Below the pieces are notes generated by a model. It was not told where the DNA came from and did not search any database. It saw nothing but the letters and a program-made list of their open reading frames with translations. From NCBI GenBank assembly GCA_029237695.1, contig CM055265.1:121597078-121661077 (forward strand): 64,000 nt of DNA, in the 5' to 3' direction. Within the stretch, counting starts at the first letter, position 1, and every line of letters starts with the position of its first letter. Source of the DNA: Conchocele bisecta (lineage: Eukaryota; Mollusca; Bivalvia; Lucinida; Thyasiridae). The position numbers and the translations under genes were made by a program. This document shows positions 10,491 through 56,700 of the stretch, piece by piece.

Positions 10491-10495
10491 CCCAC

Positions 10496-10640: not shown

Positions 10641-10648
10641 AACGAGCG

Positions 10649-11262
10649 TTAAGCTGCGCTTATTACTTTGTAAGCAGTTGGTTGATCAGTCTTTAGCAGA
10701 AGCTTGGCGTGCTTAGTTTCCGAAAGCATCTGCCGAACCTCCCGGCGTTCCTCGCGCGTAGGGATAACGTCGTTCTCTCGAAGACAGTCATCGAATGAGT
10801 CTCGGTCCTTGCAGTGGAAGAGGGCGACCCATTTCGTTTGCTCGCGCAGATCCTTGAGGAGATCCATACGCTTTGCCCCGCATGGCGGCCAGAAAATGCG
10901 AGCTCGGAGAGCATGTCCTTCTTTGTGGTCATCGCCGCCTTGGCCGAGCAGTCGTCAATCACGTATAGGGTGGACTCACCCTGGAAGCTTTGGTATAAAC
11001 CACGCAGCCAATCGTGAAGCCTGTCACCGGGGTCAATAACGTATACCTCATGGTCGGTCCATATCCACGGGCGCCGCTGATAAGTCTCGTTGTGCCACAC
11101 AGTGGGACACAGGATCACAATGTGTCGAAAGGCATCGTGGTAGGACCCCTCGAGCAAGTCCAGGATCAAAACCGTTTTTCCGCATCCTGTCTGCCCACAT
11201 ATTATGACAGAGTGGGCATCTTTCGGTAGAGTTTTAGTAGAGTGCTGAGACGTATCGACCAT
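10649..11262 (-). pseudogene. E1 genome-packaging ATPase (FtsK/HerA-type), frameshifted
   Basis: The minus-strand product begins at 11262. Walker A is GQTGCGKT near residue 25 and the Walker B-like strand is TLYVIDDCS near residue 105, followed by the sensor-like SELAFSGRHAGQSVW. This pattern fits the A32/FtsK-HerA family that pumps DNA into capsids of Polintons and large DNA viruses. Compared with E2, a segment of roughly 23 bp is missing near 10861 (GAGGAGATCC join). This shifts the frame, so the KDLREQTKWVALFHCKDRDS tail is read in another frame. The first 29 bp overlap the end of the capsid gene. Confidence 0.85.
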
Positions 11263-12316
11263 CTTCGATGTTGAGTTGTGCGTCTGTGATTATATATAAG
11301 TACACGTTCAATGGCCCAGCTCCATCCGCCTCTTTGGTTATCTGGATCCTCACGCCCTCGCTAGCGTTCTCAACTTGGCGTCCACTACCGTGCATTTGGT
11401 CGTCGTCACTGGCTCGCATGTCTAGCCATAACGCGTATTTGGTAGTCTAGGGACTGCGCGAGGGAGACGTCTGAGAGCCGCAGGTCTTTGGCAACCGCGG
11501 CAACCTCCGGGGAGTGCTTAGAGCCGGCAGCAAACTGTTTTCTGGCTTCGTCCCACTGCTGGTGCGCGCGAAAGCCCTGGCTGTATAGCTGATTGGGAGC
11601 TCCCTCGATAGTCACCTCGACTGGGTTCTGATCAATCGCTCGAGTTCGGGTATCGTGACCATGTCGTACTCCAGCGAAACATTGTCGATGGTATGCGTCG
11701 ATGCCATGTCAGTGGCTATGAGAACTCGGCCGTAGTCGTTGAACGTTAGTTCGTATTCGAGGCGGTCAGCCAAAGCGCTCTGATAGTAGAGCATGTGACT
11801 CTCCTGCAACTCAAAGTCGAGCGGGATGTAGAAGCGGTTGCCGTAAGCGGCCGCGATCGCGTTGTCGCTCGCGACGTTATCTGCCTTGTCACCAGCACTG
11901 ATTCTAAGTCTGGTTACGTTCTTATTTCTGCTGGTGTTAATACCCTGATAGACCGCGTTTTCGCCCTCTTGCGCCGTCTTCCACAGGTCCTGGTAACAAT
12001 GGTAGACGTCGCTGTCGTCGATCGACATCACCTCATTACCAGAAATCTTTATCATAGTCTTCTTAACGATGGCGCGACCCAGGTTCTGAACGACGGTACG
12101 GTCCGCGTCTGTCGACGTCAGCGAAATAGTGAAAGCGAGGCGAACAGTCCCCGGCACAATGACGAGTTTGGGGAAGCGGGCCAAGAGCTACTGGTTCTGG
12201 TCGATCGTGGAGGGGTTGTTCGTAATAACGACGCTGTGTCTCACGCCTTTCGCCGCGAGGGGCTGCCGCAGTCTGCGGTATGGATTGAGTTTGCGGCCGT
12301 ATTGACTCGAAGACAT
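11234..12316 (-). pseudogene. E1 probable major capsid protein, broken
   Basis: The product starts MSSSQYGRKLNPYRRL at 12316 and reads through IVPGTVRL, KISGNEVMSIDDSDVYHCY and AYGNRFYIPLDFEL to ITDAQLNIEDG at the end. It is the homologue of the 424-codon E2 gene at 46778-45504. Lesions are a TAG near 12188, an internal deletion of about 190 bp near 11625 joining RLIRTQ to the VTIEG region, and a frameshift near 11440. Its length, the position next to the packaging ATPase and the beta-rich look support a jelly-roll capsid role. The fold itself is inferred. Confidence 0.65.
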
Positions 12317-12338
12317 ATTTTCAGTGAAACTAAATAAC

Positions 12339-12371
12339 TCTATTAAACCCGTATGATTTTTTCTTTAATAC
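12339..12371. promoter_or_regulatory. Divergent TATTAAA promoter pair between capsid and acidic-protein genes (E1)
   Basis: TATTAAA at 12341-12347 and its inverse TTTAATA at 12364-12370 flank CCCGTATG. The same arrangement is kept in E2 (46797-46826), while nearby non-coding bases have drifted. The capsid gene starts on the minus strand at 12316 and the acidic gene on the plus strand near 12403, so each TATA-like box points toward one of them. Confidence 0.55.
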
Positions 12372-12402
12372 ATCGCTAAAGACGGCTGGTTACGATATTG
12401 AT

Positions 12403-12675
12403 ATGGACGAATTCGATCATGGTGACATCGATGATGACCTCGATGATGATGACCTCGATGATGATAACGATAACGAAACGCTCTTCATAGAGACTCCAGC
12501 CGGTGAGGAAATAGGTGGCGCTAGCAACACCATTAGTCTAAGTCAGGAATTAATCGAGTCAGTTGTAAACGACTACTACAATAATTTGGCAGAAAATGGT
12601 GTGGTCCCATCTGTCGGCCGCGACTACTCCAAGTTCGAATTGGATCTGCGCGGTAGGTTGCGACTAAAAGCATAA
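12403..12675 (+). CDS. E1 small acidic Polinton protein
   Basis: A 90-residue intact frame. The first 30 residues are almost all Asp with Ile/Leu (DDDLDD repeats), then come FIETPAGEEIGGASN and a conserved tail, NDYYNNLAENGVVPSVGRDY followed by FELDLRGRLRLK. The E2 homologue begins further upstream with an ATG that is ACG here, so this start may be secondary. The tail resembles a small protein widespread in invertebrate Polintons. Its role is unknown; a scaffold or nucleic-acid mimic is only a guess from the charge. Confidence 0.6.
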   Translation: MDEFDHGDIDDDLDDDDLDDDNDNETLFIETPAGEEIGGASNTISLSQELIESVVNDYYNNLAENGVVPSVGRDYSKFELDLRGRLRLKA

Positions 12676-12716
12676 CATGTCCAAATCATCAACACGAGGA
12701 CATAAAACCCCCAGCG

Positions 12717-13572
12717 CTGAGCACCATTGCCGGAAAAAACCTGGGCTGTGGCCAAATCGTAAGGGCCGAACTCGGATTCAAGGTTTGGAAGCCTGGTAAA
12801 ACAATAATGCGGGCCCGTGCTGTAGAGACCCTACAGTCTACCGACGAAACGCTGGAAAAGACGACCGCCGCTATAGAAACGGTATATCTCAGCGATGTCA
12901 CTCGTGTAGCCACCGACGCTATTCACACAATGAAGATCAGCGAAAGCGAGATAGACGGAATACTCAGCACGATGGATGACCCACTGTTACCTCTTCGCGA
13001 CCTCCGGGGACTCGATAAGGCTCTGCAAACGGTCCGGGGCGAACTGGTCCTTAACCTCTCCAAGCTCGCTTGGAGGCTGCATCGGCTTGCCGTGAGGCTC
13101 TCCACACCCAAATAAGTCGGATCCGCGAAACAATCTCGAGGGTTCTGCACGAGGAGACGACACTCGGTGAGCGTCTTCGCACTCTGTTCAGAGAGCAGGG
13201 CTCACAATAGTAAGCATCCTCACAGCTCTCGGCATGACTATATCAACCATAGTTCTAGCTATCACTGGTGGTGCGGCGGCTGCCCCCGCACCAAAACCCG
13301 CGCCAGCACCCGCGCCAGCAAACGCGCCATCCGGCGGAGCCAAGGAGTGGGTAAAAAAGCATATAAAAGCCCTCGCCAGTCTCCTGGATAAATTAGCCGG
13401 AAAGGCGGCTGCCGCGCTGCCTGGGTTGATTGTGGGACTCGTCTCCTACTTGTTATCTATATCATCAAAAACGGCCGGATGGCTCGCCGAGAATGCTAGG
13501 GCTTTAATCGTGGCGATCGCCGGTCTCCTACTATTCGCCGCCCGAGAGTTTCTAAAATCAAAACGCGAATAG
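12717..13572 (+). pseudogene. E1 coiled-coil membrane protein with amphipathic C-terminus
   Basis: The frame begins with a CTG where E2 has ATG (12717). It passes IAGKNLGCGQIVRAELGF and a helical region, loses about 120 bp near 13065 at a repeated AAGCTCGCTTGG, then continues in other frames with LGERLRTLF-type sequence. It ends in an Ala/Pro hinge, GGAKEWVKKHIKALASLL, ALPGLIVGLVSYLLS and ALIVAIAGLLLF. Amphipathic helices plus a terminal hydrophobic segment suggest a virion membrane-active or internal protein. From memory, the family is common in cnidarian and mollusc Polintons and is usually annotated as uncharacterised. It converges with the next minus gene, overlapping by 15 bp. Confidence 0.65.
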
Positions 13573-14017
13573 TCCGACCGCCACGAGGGCGACGACGAGC
13601 CCTAATTTCTCCTCCTCGTGGGCTGTGGCACTAGGTCCGAAGGAACTTGTTGATGCATCAAGTCCTTTTGGAACAACGGTGGAACTTGATGAGACACTAG
13701 TTCCGAATGAACTTGATGTGGTGCTTCGTGGTGCGGTGGGTGCTTGCGGTTTTATGAAATCGTTTCCACGCGCGGTGCGCTTGATGATATCCGCGTTCAA
13801 TGTTCCCGCTATGGCCGATTTTTGGTTGACTGTGGCGATTACGATCTGATTATTGCAAACGTCAACCCGGTAGTCTCGTAGTATCATATTGCTCGGCGCC
13901 ATATACACACCTATTCCAAATACATAGTCTACTGGGGTGCCGCCATACTGCAAAATGTATTAATACCGCTGGATCGCAACCGGGAGGTCCACCGGAGATG
14001 AGATGGCGTCCTCGACC
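13558..14017 (-). pseudogene. E1 C-terminal part of conserved Polinton protein (TPVDYVFGIG family)
   Basis: Minus-strand codons from 13953 read TPVDYVFGIGVYMAPSNMIL, then QIVIATVNQK and a Ser/Thr-rich linker, and end in a hydrophobic stretch (LGLVVALVAVGLFAF) that is probably a membrane anchor. Upstream sequence to about 14017 still matches E2 but out of frame. The N-terminal two thirds present in E2 (48.5-49.46 kb) are missing, cut off at the tandem repeat. Confidence 0.65.
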
Positions 14018-35543: not shown

Positions 35544-35577
35544 CTCCCAGGGTGTCCGGTTTAGAGAAGTTCCACTG
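35509..35577. mobile_element. Miniature pogo/Tigger-like hairpin
   Basis: CTGTGGAACATCTCTAAACC meets the inverted GGTTTAGAGAAGTTCCACTG with almost no loop, between TA dinucleotides. The CAGTGGAACCTCTCTAAACC consensus resembles pogo/Tigger TIRs. A second copy lies at 57370-57426. Confidence 0.65.
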
Positions 35578-35744: not shown

Positions 35745-38700
35745 GTACGTATACCCTACCACCTACGCTAATCTCAATATTTGTAAGTCTCTTTATTTCG
35801 AAATACATGTACATGTACTTGAATATTGTGCTTGGATCAAGCAGCTTAATTAGGTGCTTTGCCAACTAGCAATCAAGCAATTTGATTGTCTGAGTCTGAG
35901 CTGCGCTGCAGCTCAGACTCAGACAATCAAATTGCTTGATTGCTAGTTGGCATTGCCAATATCTGTTAGAAGCATTGCTACTCTGGGCAAGATTAACGCA
36001 GGCGGTTTTGTACTTACGCAAATATCACGCATGAAGTATATTGAAACAAAATGTGTTGTTTTAAGATGCATATATTGATAAACGGTGACATGAGTTGAGA
36101 CTTTTTTGATGATAATTATCCAGATGATTTGAAATTTCGAAATGTTTCAAATTCAGTTACCTATTAAAATGTATACATTTTCAGCCTTCCTTCACCCCAG
36201 TTCTGATTATTTTGTTGTGCATACTAAATAATACTTGTATCTATAAGTTATCTACATGTTGTAGTCGCATTTTCGTTATATACTTATTCGTCTGTCGCCC
36301 TGTTGAAAATTAAAACTGAAACGGTGCCGCACATTCTCAATATACATACACGTCCTACAAAGAGTTGTGAGTCTCAGGTGGGAGCATGCGATGGGTAATT
36401 TAACGATCGGGGTTCATCAATTTGTATGTGATAGTTGAATCTGGTTATAACCCTTATGTGGTATTACGATCATTCGTAATCCTATTTGAGGGAAGGGGCC
36501 AAGTGACTTTGGTGTGGTATGGACTTGGCACCAGGTCAGATTATTCTAATGTCCGAGCTGAAGGCCGCTAAACACCAATAAACAAACAAACAAAAACTAG
36601 AAACAGTTAAAAGTCCATAAAAAATTTGATGAAGGCCGGACGACCTTCATAACGTATTCTTAGGCTTATCCCGATAAGTTTTCAACAAAAAGTCGTTTAT
36701 TTCTACAAGACACTCCATTCAATAAGTTATGTATTGAACAATGGTTCGTTTATTGATGGCTTCAAATGTTTCGAAGCACTGCGCTATCTGGCACTATGTC
36801 CTCGAACACTGAAAGAACCATCGCGTACTTATTGTCTACCTTAGCATGCGTGAAACAAAAACGTGTGGTCTGCTGTTTGTATCGTTTGTATTCTTTTCTC
36901 AATAAAACATGGTTTGACAGCACTTAAGAATCATTTCCATTGGGAATGATTCTAAACTGTTGTCAACACATATTTTTGGTGGGACAAATTTAAAATAAAT
37001 AATGAGCAGCAGACGATAACATTTCTCCAGCAATGTAAGGGTATACTAAGTTATTCTTGTTTTACAGATAAATGTATACGATGTCTACTGCTACACGCCG
37101 CTGCAGACAACACTGTCTCCCTTGGTTGCAGCCGTTCCTAGATATGTCTACATCCGCGGCGAGAAAACCACCGTATTTACCGCCAACATTGTCTCCTGGG
37201 CGCGCACACTCCTGGTCATACCCGTTGCTTGGTGCTTAAAGTACGTTGAAACCATCACAGTCCAAGTATGTGTTTTGTGGAATAGCAAAACATGTTTTGG
37301 TTGTAGCAGCATGTATTGTATTCCTACTTTGTTATATATGCTATATATGCTATAAGTAGTATATAAGAGTCACAATGATATCATCACCCTCTGGAAGGCA
37401 CCGGCTACGCGCTGCGCCCCCCACCGCATGGTGGTATCATTGGTGACTCTTATATACTACTACCGCGAGACCATATATTTATGACATGAGAAGATACACC
37501 CTATTAGAGATAAGAATCCCTATGTTATACTCAGTATATTACAGCAATCTGTCCTTATATATAATGTACATTTATTACAAATAAAATATAAACTTACACC
37601 CTATTGAAGATAAAAATCTATTGGTTATACTCAGTATAATGTCTACCATAAAGCAACTGAGAGAGCAAGCTAAGAGTTGGGGAATTTCCCTAAGAGGTTT
37701 GAGACTCAAGAAAGATATAGCAGATAGGATAAGTGACGCGCGAGCCGTCGTCTACGAGGAGAGGCTGCGACGTGCGGTTTCGACCGGACGACTGCCCGCT
37801 GACCCTGAAAAACGCTCCGAGAAATTGGAGAACGAAACGACGGCCAGTCTTCGTGCCACTGCTTACGCGCAGCGTGTAAAAGAAGATCCCAGCGCGCGTA
37901 GAAAACCACTATACAAGGCGTACTACAATAAGATTTGTCAAGGGTTGGTTGGGAGACCTCCTAAGAGTAGGAGAGATATCGCCAGAGCTTTGGTGGAGGA
38001 GGGTCCCAGGATTCTCGCCGAAGAAGCCGTAGTTAGGGAAACTGTTGATAGGGGTAGGAGGAAGATAGTATGGACTTTCGAGAGGGGGGTAGATGGGGAG
38101 ATCGCTAATCGCATAATGAATAAAATTCATCCAGAGATGACCACGGCGTGTTATCTGAGGTATTCGTGCTCGTATCGTATTAGGAACATCGAGAACGACG
38201 AAACGATGATCTATCACAAACAATCAAAGGGCAGTCCGTGGATAAACGAGATTTCCAAAGCGGAGAGTTGGATAACCGATAGAGAGAAAGGTCGAATGGA
38301 CATCGACAAAGTTGATAGACCAAACACAAAATGGACCTTCGTTCGTTGGATATCGGTCGAGGTGAAGATGATCATCGACGCTCAACAACTTCTCATGGGA
38401 GCGGGAAAACTCCCAGACTGGTTAAGACAGAAAAAGGGAATGTATTCCGTCGACACGTACGACGACTACTTGTGTCTGTTTAGGTGCATAGCCATCCACC
38501 GTGGAGGGAGACCAGACCGCTGTTGTGAGAAGGCACGAACTCTAGCTCACGAATATCTCGGTCACGATAACGGACCGGATAGTAAGGGAATTCCCCTGAA
38601 AGATATTAAGAAGGTCGAAGAGCACTTCAAGATGTGCATTCGCGTTTACGAGCCCACCGACGAAGGAGTGTGGTACCTACTGAAGTGTCCGGCAAACTAC

Positions 38701-41700
38701 GACGCGGTCGGGGAGAAGATCATGACGATAGGAATGTTTGGAGGTCACTCTTTTCTCATAACGAACCTCCGCAAGATGACGAACGAGTACGGGTGCACCG
38801 GATGTCAACAACGGTTCACAAAGTCGTGTACGAGAAGGCGTTCTATCCTAAGGGGTCAGCGAGCGCGAGGTCGATTCAATGGCTGAACAGAGAAGAGGAA
38901 AGGGTGGGAAAGCACATACATCACGCCGACTGTGGTCACGGTGGTGAGAGGTGAGTGGCCGGCGATCCGGTCGACGGTTACTGTCACGAGACTGAAACCG
39001 TGTTTCAGTTTCACGGATGCTACTGGCACGGGTGTCCGAGGCATTGCATGAGAGGTAACGCGAGATCGCTGTACTAACGAGGACGAACATTCAAGACGCC
39101 AAGATAAGGGATGAGGGTTACGAGCTGGTGGTGATGTGGGAGTGTGAGTGGTTGAATGAGGTGAATACCTACTATCCACAATCACCGCGCGAGGAGGAGA
39201 CGACTCTGTACCCCCTCACCAGATAGTCTACGACTTCGAGGCGTATCTCGTCAAGTCAAAAACACTCAACCCACCAAAGACCTGACTTCGAGGTCGAGGC
39301 CCACGTTCCTATATCGGTGGTGTGATACGATGCATGAAGGGATAACCCACATCTGCGAACGAGATCCTGACACGTTAGTCGAGAAGTTCGTGACCGAGCT
39401 ACAGATGAGAGGTAAGGTAATCAGGGAGGGGGTTAGGAAGAAGTATCTGCCGGCCGATATAGATATGCTATCGAAGTCTCAGCAAGCAAAGATTGTCTCT
39501 TGGATTGACCAAGTCCCGGTGGTGGGGTTCAACTGTAGCAGGTACGACCTGAACCTCATCAAGCAGTACTTTGTAGAGAAGTTGGCGGCCACCGTGAATA
39601 AGGTGATGGTCGGAAAGAGAGCCAGCACGACGATGTTTCTGTTTACCCCGGAGTTTAGATTTCTCGACATCATTCAGTATCTGGGACCCGGTACCACGTA
39701 CGACCGGTGGGTTAAGGCGTACGACTGTAAAACGGTAAAGTCTCACTTTCCGTACGAGTGGTTCGATAGCGCGGACAAGCTCGACCATCCGGGGCTGTCA
39801 GACTATCCCGAGTGGTACTCGAAGTTGAAGGGTGAGTTCCTACTGTCGTTGTCCGAGTGGAAAGAGTGTAAGAAGGTATTCCGAGAAAATGGAATGAAGA
39901 CGTTCAAGGAATGGTTGCAACACTACAACGACTTGGATGTAGGACCGTTCCTGGAGGCTCTGACTAAAATGACTGAGTTCTACAGGGGAAGAGGAGTGGA
40001 CATACTCAATGATGCTGTGTCTCTGCCCGGTGTATCCCTTCAGTACCTACTCCGCGGGTCGATCGATGGGAAGGCGGACACGCCCGAGCTGTGGTGACCG
40101 AAGTCTGAAACTTACGAGATGATGAAGCAGGGATTGGTCGGTGGTCCGTCCACAGTGTTCTCCAGATACGCAGAGGCTGGCAGGTCGACGATCAGAGGTC
40201 AGGTAGGTAGTCGGGAGGAGAAGATGTGCAAGGCGGTGATGGGGTACGACGCCAATGCGCTGTATCTGTCTACCCTGTCGAAAGACATGCCGTGCGGGAG
40301 GAGGAGACGATGGTGGACGTGTGACGACCCGGAAAGACAGTCGTATATAGACTGTTCCGTGAGGGAGGTCAGGAGTGAAAAGTGGTTCGGATTTGCGGAG
40401 TTGGATATAGAGGTCCCGGAAACGTTGAGAAGACAAGTTTCTCGGAAATGTCACCGCTGTTTGTAATCGAGAAGTCGATGAGAACGAGGTTCCGCAGCAC
40501 ATGAAGGACTACCTGGCCGGGACCGGGAGGAAAAGGGTCGAAGGACAGAGAAAGCTCGTGGGGGCAATGTCCGCCAAGAAGATGATCATATACTCCCCAC
40601 TGCTAAAGTGGTATCTGGAGCACGGTCTTATCGTCAAGGCGGTACATAGGGTGATAGACTACACGCCCGGCAAACCGTTTCAATGGTTCGTGGAAGATGT
40701 CACCGCTGCCAGACGGACGGGGGACGTAGACAAGAGCAAGGCGGTGTTGGCGGAGATATTCAAACTGGTTGGCAACGCGTGTTGTGGCAAGCTGATAGAG
40801 GCACAAGAGAGACACCTGAACACCACATATACGAAGGATGAGAAGACTGTCGACCGGGCACTGAGGTCGGCGTGGTTCGAAGACCTGGAGGAGATTGGGG
40901 AGGCTTACGAGATATCGAGCAGGAAGACTCGAGTGGTGATCAACAGACCGTTTCAGTGTGGCATAGCGGTCTACCAGTTGGCCAAGCTCCGGATGCTGGA
41001 GTTCTACTACGACTTCTTGGATAAGTACGTGGATCGCGGAGATTTCGAACTTATACAGATGGACACTGACAGTATGTACTTCGCGGTGTCTGAGAAGACG
41101 CTGGCGGAGGTGGTGAGAAAGAAGATGAAGAGAAAGTTCAATAAGGAGAAGACCGAGTGGTTGGCGTGGGACGCGTGGAGCAACAGAACTCCGGGATTGT
41201 TCAAGCTGGAATTCGAGGGCGATAGAGCCATTGCTCTGTGTAGCAAGTGTTAATACGTGAGTGGTGACGGAAAATCTAAGCACTCGGCCAAGGGGATGTC
41301 GAAGAGATCTAACGATCTGGACCTGGGAGAAGAAACAAGAGGCTCTCGAAGGAGGTAGGGATATGGCGGAGAACAGGGGATCCGAATGGTAACGGGGTGA
41401 TGAAGACGTACAGGCAGGAGAAGTTGGGGTTGTGCGGCGTACTACGACAAGAGGAGAGTGATGGAAGACGGGTTGCACACAGAGCCTATAGGATAGGTAA
41501 AAAAGGATAGAATACTAAAGACTCTAACGATCCGGGGGTAGCTGGGTGTCAGAAGGTACCATAAGAAGTTCTTCGCGAACAAAACCGCGAGATGGACCAT
41601 CAGCCAAATAATAGAGCACGGGCTCATCGGGTTTGGTAATAGAGCGATCCAGATGATATACATTCAGAGACCACACGGGATCAGTCGCGCGGCGGCTGCC

Positions 41701-44700
41701 AGCTTCAAGCTCTCCCGGTTGATAGAGGTACCGGACGTTAACATCCGATGGAAGCGCAATCGGCGATTGCTGCTCCTCTAACCCAACGGGTCGCCCGCGC
41801 GAGACGGCAGAGGGCTTGCTCGTCACCTTTTTAGACTTGATGGCATCTACGGGCTTCTTACCTATCAATCTGGTCACCTCTCCGTTCAGTGCGGAGACCA
41901 CGGCGGGCAGTCTGGCCACCCACTCAGTCGATCGCGAAAGAGGGTCTACAAGTTCTTTAGCATATTGGTGTCCGAACAGCCTCTCAGCCAGGGTTCGATT
42001 GAAGCGCTCCACGATCCCCTGGTCCCGGTGGATGTTGACGCGGCCGCGTCTGATAGAAACTTTGTGCTTAGACTAATAGATGAGAGACCGCGCCATGAAC
42101 TCGCGGCCGGGATCGACCTGGAGAAGATTCGGCCATTTGAGAGGACTCCTCTTATATATTCGGGAAAGGCCTCCGGCCACTTCCTTAGACTCTTTAGTGG
42201 CCAACGGCTCAGCCCCCTTATAACGACTCGCTACGTCAACGATTGTCAGTGCGTACTTGTACGTTTTGCGACCGACGCGATCGTGAGGGAGAAACAGGAG
42301 ATCCGCTTGGTGAACTTGGTTCGGCACCGGCACGTCAAATTTCGGGCGCGGAATATTGTGAGGCGCGGGTAAATAGATCTGCCAGATGGCCTGCTTCTTG
42401 AGCCATTCCTTGACAGCGTTTTCTGAAACATTGGTCGCCGCAGCGAGGTTCTTGATGGCCGCGAGCCCATTCCAGTAGCCACGTGGGTTATAGTATGTAT
42501 TCGACAGCTTGCGCGTTAGTTTGGTATCAAGTTTGCGCGTGTTCATCGTATGCGAAGTATTCTAATATATCGGACAATCTCCAACATGCCCTCGCCAGTT
42601 CGTCCGGTAACTGCGTCGTTAATAATAAACCTTTGTTGGAAGTCCAATCGCGATTGGTTAAGTTCTTAAAGAACTCGGAGGAATCTAATTCATCCCTCAA
42701 CTCCCAATCGAGATTGGATGAAGGAGTCCAATCCCCAGTATTGGTGGAGGATTCCTAACATACCGCTTTGCGAAAAGGGTGGCCGCTTTTTCATCCTCGC
42801 GCCACGTCTCGAGAGAATCTCGGGCCAGACGAATCATACTCTTTGCACCAGCTATACGATGTTTTTGGGCAGTGTAGCCTACATCGATCATAGCGTAATA
42901 AAGTTCGTCAACTAACATCGTTCTATATATATATTTTTAAAAAAAAAAAAAAATTAATTAATTATTAATTTTGTAAAAATTAAAATCTAAATTGGATATT
43001 GTAGCCGACGAGACCCACTACACCCATTCCCACGACGATGAACGCGATCTCGCGGTCTTTTTGGGGCTCTGACGGTACATAGGAATCTAAAAGTTGGGGC
43101 TCGCGATCCATTGGATCGAGACTTTTGTGCGGATATGCCAGCGCGTACTCGCGGTTGGCTTCTTCAATGTTCTGAAAAGTTTACGCGGCGTGATTTTCGC
43201 GGCGAAGCTCTTCATTGACCCAGTCCAGATGGGCGGTTCGTTTTTTCGACCACGCCTCCTTTGCGCTATTGAGTTGTTCTACAGCCATCTTTGATAGTCG
43301 AGCATACCCGATACTGAAACCGGATATCACCACGGCGTGATAAAGCGCATTCACTAACATTTTACCATCTTGTTCAGCCATTGTTATAATTATTGCATAT
43401 AAAAGGGGTCGCGATCAATGTTTAAATGGGGCGCGATTGGTGTTTCGTAACTTTCTTCTGAACACTGGCTGGTTGTTTTTTCGATAATAGGGGGTATTTC
43501 CACACGCACATGGCACCAACAACTGCCAGACCACCACCAACAACCCAACTCCAATTCACGAATTTGGGTTCAATCGGATTCGCCCAACTCCAACGGCAGT
43601 TGGTATTGGGTGACAAATTCAAAGAATTTGGGTGTGCTTCCAATTCGTGAATTGGGGGTGTTGTTGTACTCAACTCTGTCTTCAGATGTTTTGCTGTCTC
43701 CGTCCCCATCAATTCACTAATTGGCTGCAACCCCAATCAAGATTGGAGTTTAGCCTCTCGAAGCTCGGCGAGTATTTTATCTTGTTTAACTTTTCGGGTG
43801 GCAGCCGCCGCCCGCCCAGCTGCCTGTCTTTTGGGATTTTTTATATGCGGTATGTTATCCAGTGGCGGAGTAACACTCGGGTTCGATTGGGTTGGAGCAA
43901 TCGGGTTCAACTCCGTCACTCTCGCTGGTGTGTCTTGTGTCATCATTTTCAAAATTATATTTTGTATTAGAGCTTATAGTTCGTGGGCATATATGTCCAA
44001 ATTGACAGTGTTTACCCGTGGTCAACGCGGTTGTCAGTGCAGCTAAGTACATTCCAAACTTGAGATGAATTGAGCAGCAGGCTGTTCTAAGAGTGTGACC
44101 TATAAAAGGGTCAGTCTCTAGATCGTCAATCAACCCCGCGGTGTTTGGTATACGGAGAAGTATACTAACGGCGGTTGCGTACAAATGAATAGCCGCCGAT
44201 CCGAGAGTTTTTGTCATCTCCGCACCTAACCTAGATTCGTATCGCGCGTACATTTTATCGATCTCCGCATCTGACATCTTATCCACCTGAAAAACTGAGA
44301 GACGCCTACCGAGATAATGCTCCGATTGTCCCCCAGCAACCAGCGCAGCTAGCCGCTCTCGTCTCGCCNGCATTTTCATTTTCATTCGGAGTCGTTGCAC
44401 TCAACCCAATACCAACCGCCGATTCCGATTGCTCTGTCGGATAATTATCTTTCAGGATGTTGGCAGTCGGAATTGAGGTTTCTTCTATTAGCTGATCGAG
44501 AAGTTCGTCGCAGTTCATTTTTCTTAAAATTAATTTAAATATTCTAACAAGTCTCATCACTTTAACATATTTATTTCTTAATTTTTTCAAAATTATTAAA
44601 ATAATAAAAGCGCACCACCCGATACTTATGATCACCATTATGCTCGCAACAAAGCTCGCAGCGGAGCACCAAATTGTTAACATTGTTAACCATTGTTCAG

Positions 44701-47700
44701 CATTTGTTCAACATTTGTTAAGCATTTGTTCAGCATTGTTCAGCATTGTTCAGTAATTGCTAATTTTCTTAAAATTACTCGGCAATTACTAACGAGCATT
44801 AAGTAATTGCTTATTACTTTGTAATAAATTAATTGATAACTTCGTAAGCAGTTGGTTGATCAGTCTTTAGCAAAAGCTTGGCGTGCTTAGTTTCCTGAAA
44901 GCATCTGTCGAACCTCCAGGCGCTCCTCGCGCGTTGGGATAACGTCATTCTCTCGAAGACAGTCATCGAATGAGTCTCGGTCCTTGCAGTGAAAGAGGGC
45001 GACCCATTTCGTTTGCTCGCGCAGATCCTTGAGGACGGCGTTGTACTTTTGAGTGGATATCCATACGCTTTGCCTAGCATGGCGGCCAGAAAATGCGAGC
45101 TCGGAGAGCATGTCCTTCTTTTTGGTCATCGCCGCCTTGGCTGAGCAATCATCAATCACGTATAGGGTGGGCTCACCCTGGAATTTTTGGTATAAACCAC
45201 GCAGGGTCGGTCCATATCCACGGGCGCCGCTGATAAGTATCGTTGTGCCGCACAGTGGGACACAGGATCACAATATGACGAAAGGCATCGCGGTAGGAGC
45301 CCTCGAGCAAGTCTAGGATGAAAACCGTTTTTCCACATCCTGTCTGCCCACATATTATGGCAGAATGGGCATCTCCAATCGTGTATTGGTATTGATTGCT
45401 AATTTTCTTAATTAATTCTTTAGAATTATCAAATTTATTAATTAATAAATCGTTAGATGATTTCTTAATTTTTTGAAAATTATGTATTAATAAATCGTTA
45501 GATTTAGTAGAGTGCTGAGACGTATCGACCATCTTCGATGTTGAGTTGTGCGTCTGTAATTATATATAAGTACACGTTCAATGGCCCGGCTCCGTCCGCC
45601 TCTTTGGTTATCTGGATCGTCACACCCTCGCTAGCGTTCTCAACTTGGCGTCCGCTGCCGTGTATTTGGTCGTCGTCGCTGGCTCGCATGTCTAGCCATA
45701 ACGCGTATTTGGTATTCAGGAACTCCGCGAGGGAGACGGCCGAGAGATGCAGGTCTTTGGCAACTGCTGCAACCTCCGGAGAGCGCTTAGAGCCGGCAGC
45801 AAACTGCTTTCTTACTTCGTTCCACTGCTGGTGCGCGCGAAGACCCGCGCTGTAGAGTTGATTGGGTACTCCCTCGATCGTCACCTCTACCTTCGTGATT
45901 TTGGGGTTATAGAATTTGTCGGTTTTTCGAGCACCGAGCGCGAACCGAGCATCCTCGAACAACATCAGTATACCTTTCATCGAGCGGGCGGGTACGTTGA
46001 CATTAATATTCGACAATGTGTCGCCTTTGTCTTTCGTCATCTTGCGATGGCGAAGAACTCGGTCGTAAAGTATGGCAACGCGCCCGGCGTACTGGGTTCT
46101 GATCAATCGCGCGAGTTCGGGCATCGTGACCATGTCGTACTCCAGCGAAACATTGTCGATCGTATACGTCGATAACGTCGATAACGTTAGTTCGTATTCG
46201 AGGCGGTCAGCCAAAGCACTCTGATAGTAGGGCATGTGGCTCTCCAGCTACTCAAAGTCGAGCGGGATGTAGAAGCGGTTGCCGTAAGCGCCCGCGACCG
46301 CGTTGTCACTCGCGTTGTTATCTGCCTTGTTAGCAGCCCCGATTCTAAGTTTGGTTACGTTCTTATTTTTGCTGGTGTCAATACCCTGATAGACAGCGTT
46401 TTCGCGCTCTTGTGCCGTCTTCCACAGGTCCTGATAGCAATGGTAGACATCGCTGTTGTCGATCGACATCACCTCATTACCAGAAATCTTTATCATAGTC
46501 TTCTTGACTATGGCGCTATGGCGCCGACCCAGGTTCTGAACGACGGTTCGGTCCTCGTCCGTCGACGTCAGCGAAATAGTGAAATCGAGGCGAACAGTAC
46601 CCGGCACAATGACGTCGTGAGTTCCGAGGTTGGGGAAGCGGACTAAGAGCTGCTGGTTCTGGTCGATCGTCGATGGGTTGTTCGTAATAACGACACTCTG
46701 TCTCACGCCTTTTGCCCCGAGGGGCTCACGCAGTCTGCGGTATGGATTGAGTTTGCGACCGTATTGACTCGAAGACATAATTAATTTTATTGAAACTATT
46801 AAACCCGTATGGTTTTGTCTTTAATAAATAATTTTAAAGATGGCTGATTACGATATTAACATGGATGAAATCGGCAGAGCCAATTACCTCGATGATTATA
46901 ACAATTACCTCGATGATTATGGTGATAACGAAACGCCCTTCATAGAGACTCCAGTTCCAATCCAATCGCAATTGGGGGAAATAGGTGGCGCTACCAGCAG
47001 CGTTGGTCAAAGTCAGTAATTACTTGAGGGAGCTGTAAACGACTACTACAACAATTTGGCAGAAAAAGATCTGGTCCCATCTGTCGGTCGAGACTACTCC
47101 AAGTTTGAATTGGATATGCGTGGTTGGTTGCGACTAAAAGCAGCAGATAACCCGATCGTCAACATGAATACCTGAAAACCTAGCAATGGGCACCATTGCT
47201 GGAAAACGGGGCGGTGGCGAAATCATAAGGAACGAACTAGGATTTCCAGATTGGAAGCGTGGAAAATAAATTATGCCGGCCCGCGCTGTAGTGGCCCTAC
47301 AGTCTACCGACGAAACGATGGCGAAGACGGCCGCCTCGATAGAAACGGTAGAGCTCTACAAACGGTCCGGGGCGAACTGGTCCTTAACCTCTCCAAACTC
47401 ACGGCACTGGATGAACATATCGCGCTAGAAGAAAGAAAACTGGAGGAAGCCGGTGACGATAGAGAATCTACCGAGCGGATCGCCGAACGACTGCGGTCTT
47501 TGCGGGACGAAAGAGAAGCTCGCTTGGAGGCCACCTCGGCTAACCGTGAGGCTCTCCGCACACAAATAAGTCGGATCCGCGAAACAATATCGAGGGTTCT
47601 GCCCGAGGACACGACACTCGGTGAGCGTCTTCGCACTCTGTTCAGAGAGCAGGGCGTCACGATAGCAAGCATCCTCGCAGCTGTCGGCATGACTATATCA

Positions 47701-50700
47701 ACCATAGTTCTAGCTTTCACTGGTGGTGCGGCGCCACCACCCGCGCCACCACCAGCACCCGCGCCAGCACCCGCGCCATCCGGTGGAGCCAAGGAGTGGG
47801 TAAAAAAACAACTAAAAGCCCTGGCCAATCTTCTAGCTAAATTAGCTGGAAAGGCGGCTGCCGCACTACCTGGACTGATCGGAAGTATCGTTTCTTACTT
47901 GTTATCTATATTATCAAAAACGGTCGGATGGCTCGCCAATAATACTTGGGCTTTAATCGTGGCAATCGCCGGTCTCCTACTATTCTCTGCCACCAATCGA
48001 GATTGGAAGTTCCTACAACCAAACCGCGAGTAGTCCTATCACCACGAGGGCGACGACGAGCCCTAATTTCTCCTCCTCGTGTGTTGTGCTTCCAATTTCA
48101 CCCAATTTGCGATTGATTGGTGTTTCTCCAATCGCGATTGGTCTGTTGACGATTGGGGGTGTGGGTGAAACAACGGGTTCAAATGAACTTGATGGGGTGG
48201 CCAATTCATGAATTGGGGGTTTTATGAAATCTTTTTTAAATTTATTTGAAATTACAACATCAACACCAATCGCAGATTGGGTGAACCCGATCATGTTGGG
48301 GGTGCCCTTGATGATATCCGTGTTCACGTTACCGTTGTGGCCGATTTTTTGATTGGCGGTGGCGATTACGATCTGATTATTGTAACCGTCAACCGGGTCG
48401 TCTCGTAGTATCATATTGCTCGGCACCATATAAAGACCTATTCCAAATACATAGTCTACTGGAGTGCTGGCATTCTGCAAAACGTCTTGATAATTCTGGA
48501 TCGCCTTCTCCAGGTCCACCTTAGCTGAGATGGCGTCCTCTACAAGTGCCAAGAATTGTTTTTGTGCATCAAACGCTGTTCCCGTGCCCAGTATAGAACT
48601 GCGAGATTGCTTCTGTGCGCCGAGGATGGCCCAGACGTATGTGCGAATGGAGTCGTTGACGCGAGTAACCCCGGCCTGCGTGAACCCTAGACCCGTATCT
48701 AACATAAATGTACCCCACGAGTCCTGAACCTCAGCAGCCTGCTGTATGTAATCGACGTGAGCCAGTTTCGGAGGTAACATTTTACAAGAAAACACGCCGC
48801 GGTGCCGACCTCCAGACACTTCCGACCCGAAAGTCATAGTCGCGGGGTCAAAATTCCCGGCGTTCCGACTGAAGATGTGGTCACCGGAGTGATCGTGTCT
48901 AAAATCAGTCTGTACCCAATTTCCAGACTGGCCCCGAATGAGGCGTCCCCGAGGCCGGTGCTGGTAGGAAATGCTTTCTGTCTCCAGTCCGCGTCTTTTG
49001 AAACGTTAAATTCGTTACACAGTCTTTCAAACGCCATACGGTCGTATGCGTTGGAAATGGGATCCCAGGCGTCGTCTTGAGGTAGTGAAATACCTAGTTC
49101 TTTGAGAATCCTAACCTAGTATAATACGCTGAAAGTTGTAGACACTTCGGAGCATGACATTCTTGGATGTCAGATGTTCTTTATGTGAAACTCCACACCC
49201 GGCTGTTGCGCACCATACAGCGAAATTCATTTGGTTCTGCCAAAACTGCATCGGTGTTGCTTTCCACCCGTTTACCGCCTCCATCGTAGTAATCTTGGGC
49301 AGCCTATATTGTTCAAAGATGTTAGGGAAGTTGGTGGCAAAGCCGCTGTTCGGTCTAACCGTTACGGTTGGGTGTACAAGGCGGTTAACAACGTCTTTTT
49401 GCGTGTATTTACCTCCGACCGGGTACTTTGCATTAGAGTTAAAGCTAAATGCTTTGGTATCCATTGAAAGATATTATTATGTTTGCTACTATCACTAATG
49501 TTCAAAAAGAGAGTTGTGAACTTCAAAAATCAATCGACAACTGCTGCGGAAAACGCCGGGTAGGCCTCAGATCAATCACCTTCACGGTTGGGTGGCAGAA
49601 TGTAGAAAAGAGTGAAGGGTTTTACTATGTGAAGGGTGAACAACAATTCGGTGTAAAGCTGCCTCACGGACTGTGGGGAATAAGACAGTCTCAAAAGATT
49701 TTGTCAACTCAGAGCTTGACGGTATAATCAACCTCACAGTATCGAATGCTACCTGGCTCGCAACAATGACCATCAGCAGTGATAATAAGGTAGTGGTCTC
49801 CCCGGGGTTGGGTATTCAACTCGGTTTTAAAGAGACATACTCCTCAAACAAAGGAGTGTTTACCCCGGGTGAGTACGTCGGTGATAATCCGGTGGACTTC
49901 GCCTTCACGAAAACTCTCAGGGTGCACCTGGATCGGGTGAACACATCGTACAACACGGTAGACGGATCCCCCAGCACATTACTGAAAAGCGTGCCCGCCA
50001 GCGACTGTTTCTATGGCGAGACTGTGACCTTAGACTTCCCACACCCCGAGATGAAAGTTTTGGAATCGGGACATATCCACGAATTTACGGTCTCTATTCT
50101 CGATGATCAAGCGAGAAAGTTGAAAAACGATTACCCGATTTCGGTAGTTCTCGAAATTTCCAATTGAGTATAGGTGCCCAATATTATAATTAATTTTAAG
50201 AATGAGTATATACGGACCAGGTAGTTCTTCCGATTGGGTGACAAATTCAAAGAATTTGGAACCGGCAGAAGGTGGATTCATCCCGACAGAGGGCGACTTT
50301 TTAACTACTGGAAAAACCAAGGACCTGATCAATAAAACTATATCGAAGGTCACAAACGGGATTCACAGGAGTATATCAGATATTAGAGTAGAAGCGCTGA
50401 CGGCGACTGCACAAATTGAGAAAGATCAGGCGGCTTATAAGGTGTTGCGCTCAGAGGACTCTCTCATCAGAGAAACGGAACTAAACGAATTAGCTAAAAA
50501 AATAACCAAATTTCGAAAAGAGAGCAGGTCGGATATTAATAAAGTCCGAGCAGACCGCCAGGCGGCCCTTACGTTGCGCTTAGAGGACTCTCTCATTAGA
50601 GATGCTGCATTTACCGAACTAGATAAAAAAATAACCAAATTTCGAAAAGAGGCTCGGTTGGGGGTTGAGGGGGTCCGAACGGGTATTGATAAAGCCCGAG

Positions 50701-53700
50701 AAGACCACCAGGCGGACCTTACGGAGGCTTATGAGGTGTTGCGCTCAGAGGACTCTCTCGTCAGAGAAGCGGCGGTTGCCGAACTAGATAAAAAAAATAA
50801 CCATATTTCGAAAAGAGACCCGGTCGGGTATTGATAAAGTCCGAGAAGACCACCAGTCGAACCTTGCGGAGGCCATTGCGGAGGCTTATGATGCGTTGCG
50901 CTCTCAGTAAAGAGGCGACACTTACTGAATTAGACGGAAAAATAGCCGAATTTCTGAAAGAGACCAGGTCGGGGGTTGAGGGGGTCCGAGAAGACCACAA
51001 GGAGGCCATTGCGCTCAGAGGACTCTCTCAACTTACTGAACTAGACAAAAAAATAACCGAATTTCAAAAAGATACCCGAACGGGTATTGAGAAAGCCCGA
51101 GAAGACCACCATGCGGATATTATGTTGCTCTCAGAGGACTCTCTCAACAGAGATGTGGCGGTTACTGAACTAGACAAAAAAATAACCGAATTTCAAAAAG
51201 AGAGCAGGTCGGATATTGATAAAGTCCGAGAAGACCACCAGGCGGATATTATGGAGGCTTATGATGTGTTGGTCTTAAAGCACTCTCTCAACAGAGAAGC
51301 GGCGGTTGCCGAACTAGACGAAAAGATAAACGAAATTTCCGAGGAACTGAAACATGATCGCATAGCCGCGACCAAAGCTCTTGAGGAGGCCTCTTATAAG
51401 ATTCGTACTGAGGCATATAACGCAAACAGTGAGCTTGCCGGAATAGTGCGAACAATGAAAACGCCAAAACGTGTTATAACAGTTTGGGCTGAGAAGCGGG
51501 GCCCATTGGTTGAGGGGCACTATGAATATTCGTTCGGTGCCAATGCGAGTAATAAATGTGGGGGATACGCTATGACAACTGCAGGTGAAGTTGTCCGAAT
51601 GGCGGTCTGCTCGGTTAATGGTAGTGGTAAACCTGTGGGCGCGGTCGCAATAAATATTGTAGTAGATGGGGAAGAACGGGGGATTGGAGTCACTAAAATC
51701 TCTGGAGATAGTTCGACGATTGTTGCGTTCGCCGGTGATGATCGATTTAGACTTTCCCAAGGTAGTGTTATTAACTTTGTTACGAAAATCGGTGACCCAG
51801 AGAGTTCTTCCACTATTGTCTCATTGTTAATTGAACTTATTGTGTAAATACTAATATATTGAACTAAATTTGTAAAATTTAAATATGAACGAATCACCGC
51901 TTCCAATTGTCAATACCGATCCATCAACACTGTATCCAACTCTCAATACCACTACATCAACACTGTATCCAATTAACGAAAGAAGTTCAGATTTTAGGTT
52001 GAATAATATCGTCGCTATGCAAGATATTTTAGTTAGAGAATGTGCAAATAGAAAAAGACACGCTAACAAATATAAGCGCGCGGCGAGCATGGCTGAAGCA
52101 TCTAGTACGGTTCTGGCAAGTTTATCTGTAATGAGTGGTGCGGGGATGCTGCAACGCTATCTACAATTGTAACGGTTCCACTTGCAGGGGTTTTGAGTGG
52201 AATTACCGTTTTATCTGGAATACTTTGTATGGTAATTAGGGCGGCGGGTGGAAAACTCGAGAAAAAAAGTAGAAAACATGATAGAATATCCGTTCTCGCT
52301 AGGTCTAAGAAAAATAGCATCGACATTATGGTGTCCAAAGCGTTGGCCGATAAGAAAATATCAAATTTAGAGTTTGAATCCGTGGTGGAAGAAATGGGGG
52401 GATATGAAGAATTAAAAAATGATATAAGAATCAAGGCGCACGCCACCATGCCCAAAATTGAGTGTACTGATTGGGATAAATTTAGAGTAAAACTTGGAAA
52501 TAAAGTCGGAGGAAATGTTACAGCACCATTATAAAATAATTAAAAAAAAAAAAAAATCTTATATTGGTGCAGTAAACAAATTTACATACCTATACAACAT
52601 GTGTTTTTCACTGAGAATTACACTGTAATCCTCGGCTATCAATTTCATGGGAACCCATGTAATTGATACACTCGGCAATAAATAACCCTCGGCTATCAAT
52701 TTACGCATGAAAAAACTGATAACTATATATACGTGTGTTGACCTTACAACCGTTAGTCTCATCTCGTGTGTTATTGATCCGGTATGACGTCCGTCTCGTC
52801 TGTTTAATGGTAGCAGTCTATGCATATGTGTGTATTTGGCGATGTAATTGCGTAGCTCAAAGGTGCCGGCCTAAAAGATTTCTGCCTAAGAGCTTTGCAA
52901 TTTCGGAAACCAAATTCACACATAGGCTCGCCTTACTTCGCTGGTTTCTCTTAATAGAGGAATTGGCAATGGGGTTCAAGGCGACCCAGACTGTGAGCCA
53001 ACAGATGCGTGGGCTTAAGAAAGAATCTGCCCAGTCGATGGGGGTGTTGTGCACGAGTGGAGGCTTTTGCTAATTTTTTTTAATTTTTACAAATTATTAA
53101 TATCTTTATAAGCGATATCGTAGAAATGTATATTCGTAAACGAATCGTTGGGTTTTAACAATTTTATATAATACACCTTAGTTTCATATCCGATACGCAT
53201 TATCCGTCTTAATGTTTGTATTTGCCTCTTGTATAGTTGACATAATTGCCGGTATAATATTGTAAATGCAACGTTTTTATCGGAGCGTAATAAATTACGC
53301 TGGTATTTCATATATTCGATATCGCCTAGTGTTCTCATTTTATAGAATTTATATACAGGATTATAACCCCCGTATTCTTCGTAAACTTCTTCAACACAGC
53401 CATTAAAAACTTTCAATTCCAATTGTATTGTATTATCCATTTTCTCTAATAATATTGGTACTTGTTTTTTCTGTTCAATTTTATAAAATTAGTTTGATAA
53501 TGTTTTTTTACAGTGTTTTAATGCTGTAGAAACACCGTGACTTATCAAAAACTACACATCTATTCTATCTTTCTAACTGACTTTCCGATTTGAATTATTA
53601 CTAAACGATAATACTTGCGAGCACGTAATCCCTTGTTAACCATTCGATGAGTAGCCTGAGTGCCACCACATGGTGGACATAGCAATGACTCGGATTTGGT

Positions 53701-56700
53701 CCCTACCCCACAATGCCGACATGGGCGAGGCGAAACGGAACCTCTTCGCATCCATGCACGGTGATGTTTGCAATATTCGTAAATACCGGTACGAAAACAT
53801 CTCTCGTAACTACCTGTCTTCAACCACGCACACTTAACTAGAACCATTATGTTATATATATACTGAGTATAACATAGGGATTCTTATCTCTAATAGGGTG
53901 TATCGTCTCATGTCATAAATATATGGTCTCGCGGTAGTAGTATTTAAGAGTCACCAATGATACCACCATGCGGTGGGGGGCGCCGCGCGTAGCCGGTGCC
54001 TTCCAGAGGGTGATGGTATCATTGTGACTCTTATATACTACTCTATATGATATATCAAATATAGAACAATGAGTGTAAAAACACCATCATGCGATTTGCT
54101 TGGTACATGTACTAGTATTTTATTATCGATCCTACACATACTTGTAAACAAGACGCGTTTGAAGACCAGTAGCCTATTTCATCAACATTGCAAAGTATAC
54201 TTTCCAAGCAAAGTATACTTTGAGGGAGCAATCATTGATTTTTCCGATATGCATTATTTCATGCAGAACTAACGATTGCATATATTTGACGATTAAAACT
54301 ATGCAGAATTATTATACTGAATTTATTACATTATCACAGCCAAAATTGGCTGTGATAATGTAATAAATTCAGTATAATAAAAATTAATAAATTTATTCTA
54401 AAATTGAAAATTTCTCCCTCCAAGTATACTTTGCTAGATAAGTATACTTTGCAATGTTGATGAAATAGGCTACTGGTAGAAACACGTTCAGTTGACATTT
54501 TATATAAGACAATTGAACATTGCTCCATTCAGTCGTTACACGGCTCCAACTGGCCTTCCTCATAATGCTACTCGTTGCCAGTCTGGTACATCTAAGGCCG
54601 ATTTCACCAACATATTTAAGTACCCTTATCATAAGTATGTTTTAGGGATAAATAGTTATCAATTTGGGCCGCGTTATGCGAAAACCGGGCTTAATGACAA
54701 AAAATTCATTTTTCGCTTTTTTGCATATTCTGAATACCGCATCTTTTAAAAGTTATATACCACAAAAAATATCAATGTATCTCAATTATATTTTATGTTA
54801 CATGTATTTTTGTAACACGTGGTAGAATTGCAAACGACGTTTTAGCTCAATGACGTAGCAAATACGACGTTAACATTAACGGGCGACTTCAACGTCAATA
54901 AGAACGTTTAAGCGTAATGGAGTAGTAAACGAATAGGCCTGCCATGTAGGTTGATTTTAAGTAGTGTATGTATAATTGTATACTATTAGTGAATAATTGA
55001 CAAACGACACGTAACCTTGGGCAAAGTCAACATTATCTTGTGTGTACTTTTTGCACAACTACGAACGCCATAAATATATGAGCCGCGCCGTGCGAAACCC
55101 GGGCTTAATGACAACTTTTCAGTTTTAGGCCAAGACAAAGTATGAAAATAATGTTTATGGCTCGTGTTGCAGTTGCTAATGTAACGTTATGTTTTGGATT
55201 GCGGCCCAAGTAACGTAATTTCGTATGAATAATTTTCAAATAAGGCAGAGTGAGGCGTTTCCCTCTTGTTTGCTGCTGTCTGAAATATTTTGGGGAATAA
55301 TAGCGACATCATTTAACATTTCGTATGCGACGACATATTTTAAAGTAGACAGTAGGCCGCTTATAACATTAACTTTGTGACAAAATACGATACCGGGCAG
55401 ATTTGGTAGCGTGATACCTTATACTTTTCGCCGTGTGTCTTTCTTGAGGATCGCATTACCATCTCCTGATCTATATTATTATGCAGTCAAGTGATAAACT
55501 GATGATTTGATACTACACAAGCACTTTCGACTACAAAAGCAAGTTTATGACCATCACATTTCCAATTAATATGTTGATGCATTTATTTTAAATTCAATAC
55601 AAACCCCGGATATTTCTGTCATTATATTGCTGCGTGTCTACCTCCATTTATGATAAAATGAGTGGCATTAAATGGCATATCATTCGCTAAGTACTGGATA
55701 TAAGTGTTCAAAAGTCTCAATTTACCAAGATAATATATGGTAATATCGTTGGCATACACTAGGTTGTTCATATTTAAGATTATTTACGAATCAAAGTGCA
55801 GTGTAAGCGAAGACTTCGCTGATATGTAGCCAGTTACATTATGAGCTCACCATTTTGAATTCATAAGGACAACCGACGAAAAAGAGTAAAAATGTCAAAG
55901 AACGACAGTTAGGCGACAATGTACAGCGCCTGAAGCATTTCTAAGTCATTGATGCTGCGAGGAACTCGTGCAAGTATCATTGCTATAATATTTTGTCACG
56001 ACACCATGGCCATAACGTCAAAAATGTATTCACGTTCAATGACGTCACAAGTACGTGACGTCAAGTCATGACGTCATAATATGTGTACCGAGGCACACGG
56101 TATCGCGTCTCATATTAGTGAAAGTTTCAGTAAGTTATCATTTTCCGTTTTCTGTTCACACTTAATGTTAACTGACACCAGTAAACATAAATGGGAGGGC
56201 AAACTGTGAACTTTTACGGCGACGCTAGACAATTTGAAACGTCGTTTTTCCGACGTCGTTTACCGCTTTTCATGACGTTGTCATTAAGCCCGGTTTTCGT
56301 ATGGCGCGGCCCATTTATACATCATTATGGTTTTATTTATTGAAATACAATGTTTTCTAACCAAATAAAATGGCTGTGCTAATGTAATAACAGTTACTAC
56401 AGTATAACAATTCTTAACACTTTTAATCATCAAATATAAACAGTAATTCGTTCTACATGTCCGCCACCGATGAGCCACACCGAGGCAGGATATTTTCTGG
56501 ATTTTATTTATGTTTTCATCAAAAAAGCAGATCGTAATTTGACTTGGTGTACTATATCCAATGCTTTTTAAAGAAAACAGGGGACAACCCCCAGGTAGCA
56601 AATATCATCAATTAATCTGCCATTCTCTATGAGTTCAAAACGTTTCCTATAAAAGGGCAAAATATTTTGTCGCAAATATTGTTCTAAAATATATCAGAAT

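Follow-up and report, generated by a model that had tools for sequence, protein, structure and literature searches.

A family of short CCAAT palindromes within one Polinton

We analysed a 64,000-nucleotide stretch of DNA (contig CM055265.1, positions 121,597,078 to 121,661,077; hereafter the window) that contains a Polinton, E2, and the remnant of a related copy, E1. E2 carries a sequence-specific family of short palindromes, built on the arms CCAAT and ATTGG, that is present beyond chance. Within this window, the family lies entirely between 42.6 and 50.3 kb, in E2, and 14 of its 15 members lie inside reading frames, on either strand. We tentatively favor an origin of the family as short templated copies made by template switching.

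A palindrome family in one part of E2

The exact pattern CCAAT-N2-8-ATTGG occurs 12 times in the window, with 11 occurrences in E2 (42644-48280) and one in host DNA (24387). Allowing one mismatch returned 16 rows in E2, from which we removed three: 43584, nested with 43590; 52335 (CCAAAGCGTTGG), located beyond the stretch studied; and 47099, which is ancestral since E1 carries CCAAGTTCGAATTGG at 12629. The 13 CCAAT-type members left and two CAAATTC-AAA-GAATTTG palindromes (CAAATTCAAAGAATTTG) form the full family of 15 (Table 1). Thirteen palindromes plus two longer forms had been reported in an earlier reading of this DNA (the original prediction), and this number was reproduced with one mismatch and the three exclusions. 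The exact longer forms of the window all belong to E2: six CCAATC...GATTGG, two CCAATTC...GAATTGG and two CAAATTC...GAATTTG (43614 and 50242). Arms change together (CCAAC/GTTGG, CAAATTC/GAATTTG, CCAATTC/GAATTGG), and the gap between them ranges from 4 to 7 with a preference for 4 (6 of 11 members). Members are grouped by two to five per ~200 bp, with none in the 5 kb leftward, and extending the core to the wide stretch, by the left and right parts of E2, leaves the CCAAT count at 11.

We compared the 11 exact occurrences to several controls computed on the same stretch of E2 (42600-50300). Dinucleotide shuffling produced a mean of 0.08 and a maximum of 2 in 300 runs, Markov models of order 3-5 produced means of 0.32-0.44 (0.44 at order 5) with a maximum of 4 in 300, and random placement of the same words produced a mean of 0.49 with a maximum of 4 in 2000. 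The opposite order, ATTGG...CCAAT, occurs twice and the direct order once. No CCAAT-N2-8-ATTGG is found in E1 (9360-14016), and a single one in the 42.0 kb formed jointly by stretches 14400-37000, 53900-64000 and 1-9300; the excess over shuffled sequence that had been anticipated for E2 is thus borne out. When all 5-mers were ranked as arms in the E2 core with gaps of 2-8, CCAAT came out on top with 11, followed by TTTTT with 7, and the arms ranking below CCAAT were mostly AT-only words or bits of the family arms. Outside the family, CCAAT and ATTGG words number 23, near the 18.5 expected for the core.

We further investigated other palindromes in the window. With 6-bp arms and loops of up to 4, the E2 core contains 33 palindromes: 10 of the family, 11 others with G+C-containing arms (two or more G/C) and 12 with AT-rich arms. 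The other G+C-containing arms are at chance level (7.3 expected, maximum of 14 in 100 shuffles), showing that the family is the sole excess among G+C-containing arms, while AT-rich arms are well above expectation (2.0, maximum of 7). E2 therefore holds two excesses, the CCAAT family and AT-rich palindromes. With 7-bp arms, the left part of E2 has 4 palindromes vs 1.3 expected and the right part 4 vs 1.2, and the host stretches have 7 vs 3.9, 13 vs 5.6 and 8 vs 3.8. E2 thus shares a mild general palindrome excess with other stretches, whereas the CCAAT family is peculiar to E2 within the window. The AT-rich group, found at 42952, 42965, 44579, 44761, 45413 and 45466 and including several TAATTTT-NNN-AAAATTA, is located between E2 genes and inside the N-terminal extension of the ATPase.

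Coding context, comparison with E1 and shared units

Six reading frames carry members of the family. Here and below, the gene names ATPase, penton-like and fibre-like are putative, following the original prediction in part, and Pfam did not confirm them. The acidic and coiled-coil proteins, originally described as separate, proved to be the two ends of a single gene in relatives, according to a protein alignment. By coordinates, the capsid gene and the cores of the ATPase and the penton-like protein are free of members. Members are instead found in linkers and at the ends of genes: where a small frame ends and in the spacer that follows it, in a Pro-rich tail, at the N-terminus of the ATPase, in the acidic linker and C-terminal tail of the coiled-coil/transmembrane (TM) protein, in the penton-like juxtamembrane linker and at the fibre-like N-terminus. 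The penton-like and acidic linkers vary in both length and sequence among relatives.

Synonymous recoding of the seven coding pieces that hold members produced a mean of 1.00 exact match and a maximum of 5 in 3000, vs 12 observed (10 CCAAT-type and 2 CAAATTC-type). The 12 in-frame CCAAT-type members are distributed over the three codon phases as 5/3/4 (manual reading of the peptides). Since recoding gives 1.0 vs 12 and all three frames are used, the protein sequence is not the cause of the palindromes. We also searched relatives for the encoded peptides, covering the best 120 of 2014, 470 and 602 matches. Among 240 listed relatives, eight palindrome-encoded motifs were absent beyond the window's own P0241 and P0242, except for QS[RG]L, which had 15 matches, the 12 shown being all QSGLG in capsid proteins. 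A reversed-sequence control gave one match each for two motifs, and none of six palindrome-encoded motifs was present in the 120 best listed coiled-coil relatives.

E1 provides a comparison copy, and the results that follow come from one element and one sister remnant. Over the shared stretch, 72.6% of E2 bases align to E1. All seven comparable members are located in mostly unaligned bases (0-4 of 14-16 aligned; permutation P 5e-5), consistent with the earlier claim that E1 lacks the palindromes at the compared places; 47099 was kept outside the permutation because E1 has it too, and including it gives 7 of 8. The set compared also leaves out CAATTCACTAATTGG at 43710. Net differences in length between E2 and E1 at five comparable places are +12, +15, +117, +66 and -9. 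All five, spread over four reading frames comparable with E1, are multiples of three, and the proposal that the palindromes are partly in frame and tolerated within proteins holds at these places. By hand count, 14 of 43 single gaps in aligned E1-E2 blocks, some of them intergenic, are multiples of three, in a list where the changes at 47993 and 46962 each count as two gaps (6+6 and 2+13). This contrast suggests that the changes arose while the genes were in use and predate the later decay. At 46962, the acidic linker has the five additional codons reported originally (+15 bp net), which would permit insertion of a whole unit. In the Pro-rich gene, E1 is 9 bp longer than E2 over the stretch that contains 43733, which does not amount to a clean insertion. 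E2 is a decaying element: an in-frame stop lies at 46248-46250 between its two capsid pieces, another falls within the family palindrome at 43733-43746, and the penton-like frame also appears broken.

Site 47993 is the only one where relatives allow polarity to be examined, on a motif that is itself variable there. Here a 14-bp palindrome comes with a net 12 bp over E1, which BLAST places as two 6-bp gaps flanking an aligned core and MAFFT as a single 12-bp gap. In an alignment of 19 protein relatives, only T-N is extra before R-D-W, and none of the 19 has residues at that place. The CGA-GAT-TGG part aligns with an R-E-W-like motif of the relatives, in which R is found in 13, E or D in 14 and W in 11 of the 19, with an exact R-[ED]-W in seven. 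The tail of the coiled-coil/TM protein, which could be cut out in 84 of 120 listed relatives, many of them near-identical, ranges from 25 to 50 residues and is most commonly 32 (42 of 84); that of E2 is 35. Since the net gain is smaller than the unit and R-D-W aligns to the relatives' tail, the palindrome was probably not inserted whole. Judging from this one alignment, it was probably completed from existing bases, with ancestral core codons. It may also represent an insertion plus a small deletion.

Some members share more than their arms. An exact 27-bp repeat, at 43605 and 50233, is present in two different genes and includes 10 bp outside the palindrome; apart from the fibre repeats and the 44.7-kb array, the E2 interior has no longer exact repeat. 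Repeats of 16, 15, 14 and 13 bp recur at or beside family members, with identical 14-mers at 42644/48128 and 42704/47993. Flank sharing reaches 1.78 vs 1.10 +/- 0.14 at random core positions, and 1.75 vs 1.16 +/- 0.16 at random linker positions (P 0.003). Half-sites outside palindromes tend to lie close to them, 6 of 10 being within 150 bp vs 28% expected (P 0.04). Beyond the family, a 17-mer is common to 44756, a distant intergenic position, and 45395, in the AT-rich part of the ATPase extension, and short copying may therefore extend beyond the family palindromes.

Table 1. Positions of E2, E1 and the palindromes of the family in the window
Feature	Position	Strand	Context
Polinton E2, TIR to TIR	37329..54069	.	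ends approximate
E1 remnant	10008..14016	.	collinear with E2 43676-48543; comparison copy without CCAAT palindromes
CCAATCGCGATTGG, perfect, 7-bp arms	42644..42657	.	intergenic, downstream of small (-) reading frame
CCAATCGAGATTGG	42704..42717	.	final codons of small (-) reading frame (PISIG)
CCAAT-N7-ATTGG	42728..42744	.	small (-) reading frame shared with 42704 member (PILGIG)
CCAATTCACGAATTTGG, imperfect	43551..43567	.	Pro-rich tail gene (-)
CCAACGGCAGTTGG, variant with both arms changed together	43590..43603	.	
27-bp unit with CAAATTCAAAGAATTTG at 43614-43630	43605..43631	.	exact copy of 50233-50259
CCAATTCGTGAATTGG	43640..43655	.	PIHEL
CCAATCAAGATTGG	43733..43746	.	Pro-rich tail gene, includes in-frame stop; 0/14 bases align to E1
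CCAATCGTGTATTGG	45375..45389	.	in-frame extension of ATPase N-terminus, +117 bp vs E1; 0/15 bases align
CCAATCGCAATTGG	46962..46975	.	acidic N-terminal linker, +15 bp vs E1; 1/14 bases aligns
CCAATCGAGATTGG	47993..48006	.	coiled-coil/TM protein near C-terminus (TNRDW), +12 bp vs E1; 4/14 bases align
CCAATCGCGATTGG	48128..48141	.	penton-like protein linker (PIAIG); in 16-mer shared with 42643
CCAATTCATGAATTGG	48201..48216	.	penton-like linker (PIHEL, second occurrence)
CCAATCGCAGATTGG	48266..48280	.	penton-like linker (QSAIG)
Second 27-bp unit with CAAATTCAAAGAATTTG at 50242-50258	50233..50259	.	N-terminus of coiled-coil repeat (fibre-like) gene

Proposed template copying and rival explanations

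The explanation that we favor, as a tentative one, is that the family consists of short templated copies generated by template switching. In an ancestor of E2 still replicating as a virus, DNA synthesis or repair would have switched template at short microhomologies, copying stretches of ~6-30 bp from elsewhere in the same genome, or by fold-back, into new places. A palindrome would spread best in this way because its arm can pair both with itself and, whatever their orientation, with all other copies. A chance GATTGG half-site would already offer a place to land and could be extended to the complete palindrome. The copies that lasted would be mostly those in linkers or at gene ends and those that preserved the reading frame. 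We infer the process (template switching), the direction in which copying ran and a timing before integration. Published work describes templated inverted insertions of 5-34 bp in yeast (PMC11724301) and perfect stems produced by template switching in a single event (PMC8794818). A stronger version, possible but doubtful, would have a 14-bp palindrome spreading by its self-complementarity only, multiplied through virus replication errors that turn half-sites into full copies, and now residing within several viral proteins. If true, few of the selfish sequences proposed so far would be as small as this palindrome.

Several observations weigh against template copying. One arm sequence dominates, whereas ordinary template switching copies whatever is nearby and should leave arms that vary by site, so that copying needs either many copies from one source or selection. 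Flank sharing is weak when the 11 CCAAT-type members are taken alone (P 0.025). E1 shows no palindrome excess (5 vs 4.8; 1 vs 1.4 with 7-bp arms). Finally, the family is known from one element, and polarity can be examined at one site, with a variable motif (7 of 19).

We favor template copying over selected sites, which we consider a possible but rather unlikely origin of the family. Here, CCAATCGnGATTGG would be the putative recognition site of a dimeric viral or host DNA-binding protein, with a role in regulation, packaging, segregation, or methylation as proposed for cyanobacterial HIP1, and sites would be gained by point mutations and small indels wherever the protein tolerates them. A single dominant consensus with a preferred gap of 4 (6 of 11), the use of both strands and all frames, the concentration of half-sites near palindromes and the perhaps partial construction of 47993 from existing codons all suit such selection. 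Gaps of 4-7 and co-changing arms are unlike a fixed site, however, and selection does not readily explain the 27-bp copy with its 10 bp of flank, the flank sharing, the clusters of two to five in ~200 bp with none in 5 kb leftward, or the absence of sites in E1. The original prediction proposed a mobile mini-palindrome; the family, the missing E1 counterparts and the 27-bp copy stand, while movement as a whole unit would fit 46962 by length (+15) but not, in any simple way, 47993 (+12) or 43733 (-9). A trans-acting enzyme inserting the 14-17 bp palindrome as a unit seems unlikely to us: it would account for the identical 14-mers at 42644/48128 and 42704/47993, for the lack of E1 counterparts and for the little flank shared by most CCAAT-type pairs, but the gain at 47993 is less than 14 bp and E2 is 9 bp shorter than E1 at 43733, although insertion plus deletion could account for either. 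No target-site duplication was seen by eye in the 12-base flanks of members, with E1 as the sole empty-site reference and no systematic test. We know of no enzyme that moves a 14-bp unit.

Independent local fold-back events favoring GATTGG half-sites, with no copying between sites, are improbable. Insertions of 5-34 bp by fold-back are documented in yeast (PMC11724301) and 47993 resembles the completion of a half-site, but other G+C-containing arms are at chance (11 vs 7.3, maximum of 14) and a 27-bp unit is common to two genes. Functional RNA hairpins, like those at the 3' ends of Mimivirus transcripts, are less probable still. The members at 42704 and 42728 do end at a stop codon, 47993 lies ~25 bp before one and AT-rich palindromes sit between genes; yet the RNA stems predicted for the members span 4-7 bp, at -1.1 to -5.2 kcal/mol, and all but one of the 15 members fall within reading frames, of either strand. 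Chance, base composition or repeated peptides hardly deserve credence: linkers share words such as TTGGGTG and PIHEL occurs twice, but the shuffle, Markov, placement and synonymous-codon controls all fell below the observed count. If copying is true, the family shows how short a spreading sequence can be and documents, in nature, how template switching has moulded the linkers of viral proteins. If site selection is true, the palindromes indicate that animal Polintons have a factor, so far undescribed, that binds or modifies DNA.

The two Polintons and known palindromic systems

E2 has the terminal inverted repeats (TIRs) and capsid proteins of a Polinton/Maverick, the TIRs (37329-37539 vs 54069-53858) sharing 94.8% identity over 212 columns. 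No 6-bp target-site duplication was found at its BLAST-defined borders, which are approximate ends. A Pfam scan of ten E2 pieces gave no match above cut-offs; below them, on fragments, were rve, for a retroviral-type integrase (E 3.7e-6, 27.6 bits vs a cut-off of 32.6), and DNA_pol_B_2, for a protein-primed PolB (E 0.0012, 18.3 bits vs 25.8). E1 and E2 are ~80-90% identical in long blocks, with collinearity that is firm from 10089 and weak for the first match, 33 bp at 10008. In the capsid gene, 130 of 167 codons are identical, 18 differ synonymously and 19 change the amino acid. The capsid half at 45507-46247 has 2014 protein relatives, and the 120 best listed include a 'Major capsid protein' of Elysia marginata and proteins from metagenome-assembled genomes (MAGs) of lucinid-clam symbionts. 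These relatives make a mollusc host likely, and the window is probably mollusc DNA with two related Polintons. Polinton proteins labelled Candidatus Thiodiazotropha in public MAGs (P0005, P0010, P0164 and P0200) are probably clam host DNA in symbiont bins.

Other features were observed in and around the two elements. E1 is interrupted at 14015 by a ~2-kb sequence (region 14015-24363) with several copies ~94-97% identical. The fibre-like gene (50190-51847) consists of degenerate coiled-coil repeats in two reading frames. Short direct repeats (TTGTTMAGCATT-like) form an array next to the ATPase gene's 3' end in both E2 (44676-44770) and E1 (10500-10640); this array is possibly a regulatory or replication element. 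Outside E2, long perfect hairpins with arms of 22-45 bp and loops of 0-5 are found at 31877-31955, 35519-35567, 35860-35952, 54309-54380 and 57866-57917.

We also looked for the family elsewhere. Profile and sequence searches of viral contigs (capsid, penton-like and coiled-coil) and of genome contigs (capsid and coiled-coil) returned no relatives, with limited sensitivity as the alignment-based contig queries used two peptide patterns each. Pattern scans of viral contigs gave 0 matches for two CCAATCNNGATTGG palindromes 5-35 bp apart and 0 for the 27-bp unit. No comparable family was recognised in the titles and abstract openings of literature on Polintons and palindromes.

The original comparison with Rickettsia palindromic elements (RPEs) holds only in principle: in both cases palindromes lie inside genes with the frame kept, and in E2 they are in frame in genes of unrelated function, across six reading frames. 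RPEs are ~150 bp and encode a conserved peptide (PMC10969869). E2 has neither this size nor a single encoded peptide, as its members, in an animal Polinton, are 14-17 bp with a longest shared unit of 27 bp and occupy phases 5/3/4. HIP1 is likewise a very short palindrome in strong excess, described in PMC4390886 as a single octamer that is highly frequent in the genomes of cyanobacteria and associated with methyltransferases, whereas E2 has a variable gap, co-varying arms and an excess within one 7.7-kb stretch. Mimiviridae transcripts are terminated by hairpin-forming palindromes (PMC4402537), and some E2 palindromes are also near gene ends, but their predicted stems are weak, mostly internal and fall short of stable hairpins. 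Template-switch and fold-back insertions, as described in PMC8794818 and PMC11724301, resemble the E2 family in their short inverted copies, stems formed in one event and microhomology; they are not tied to one sequence, whereas in E2 one arm family dominates.

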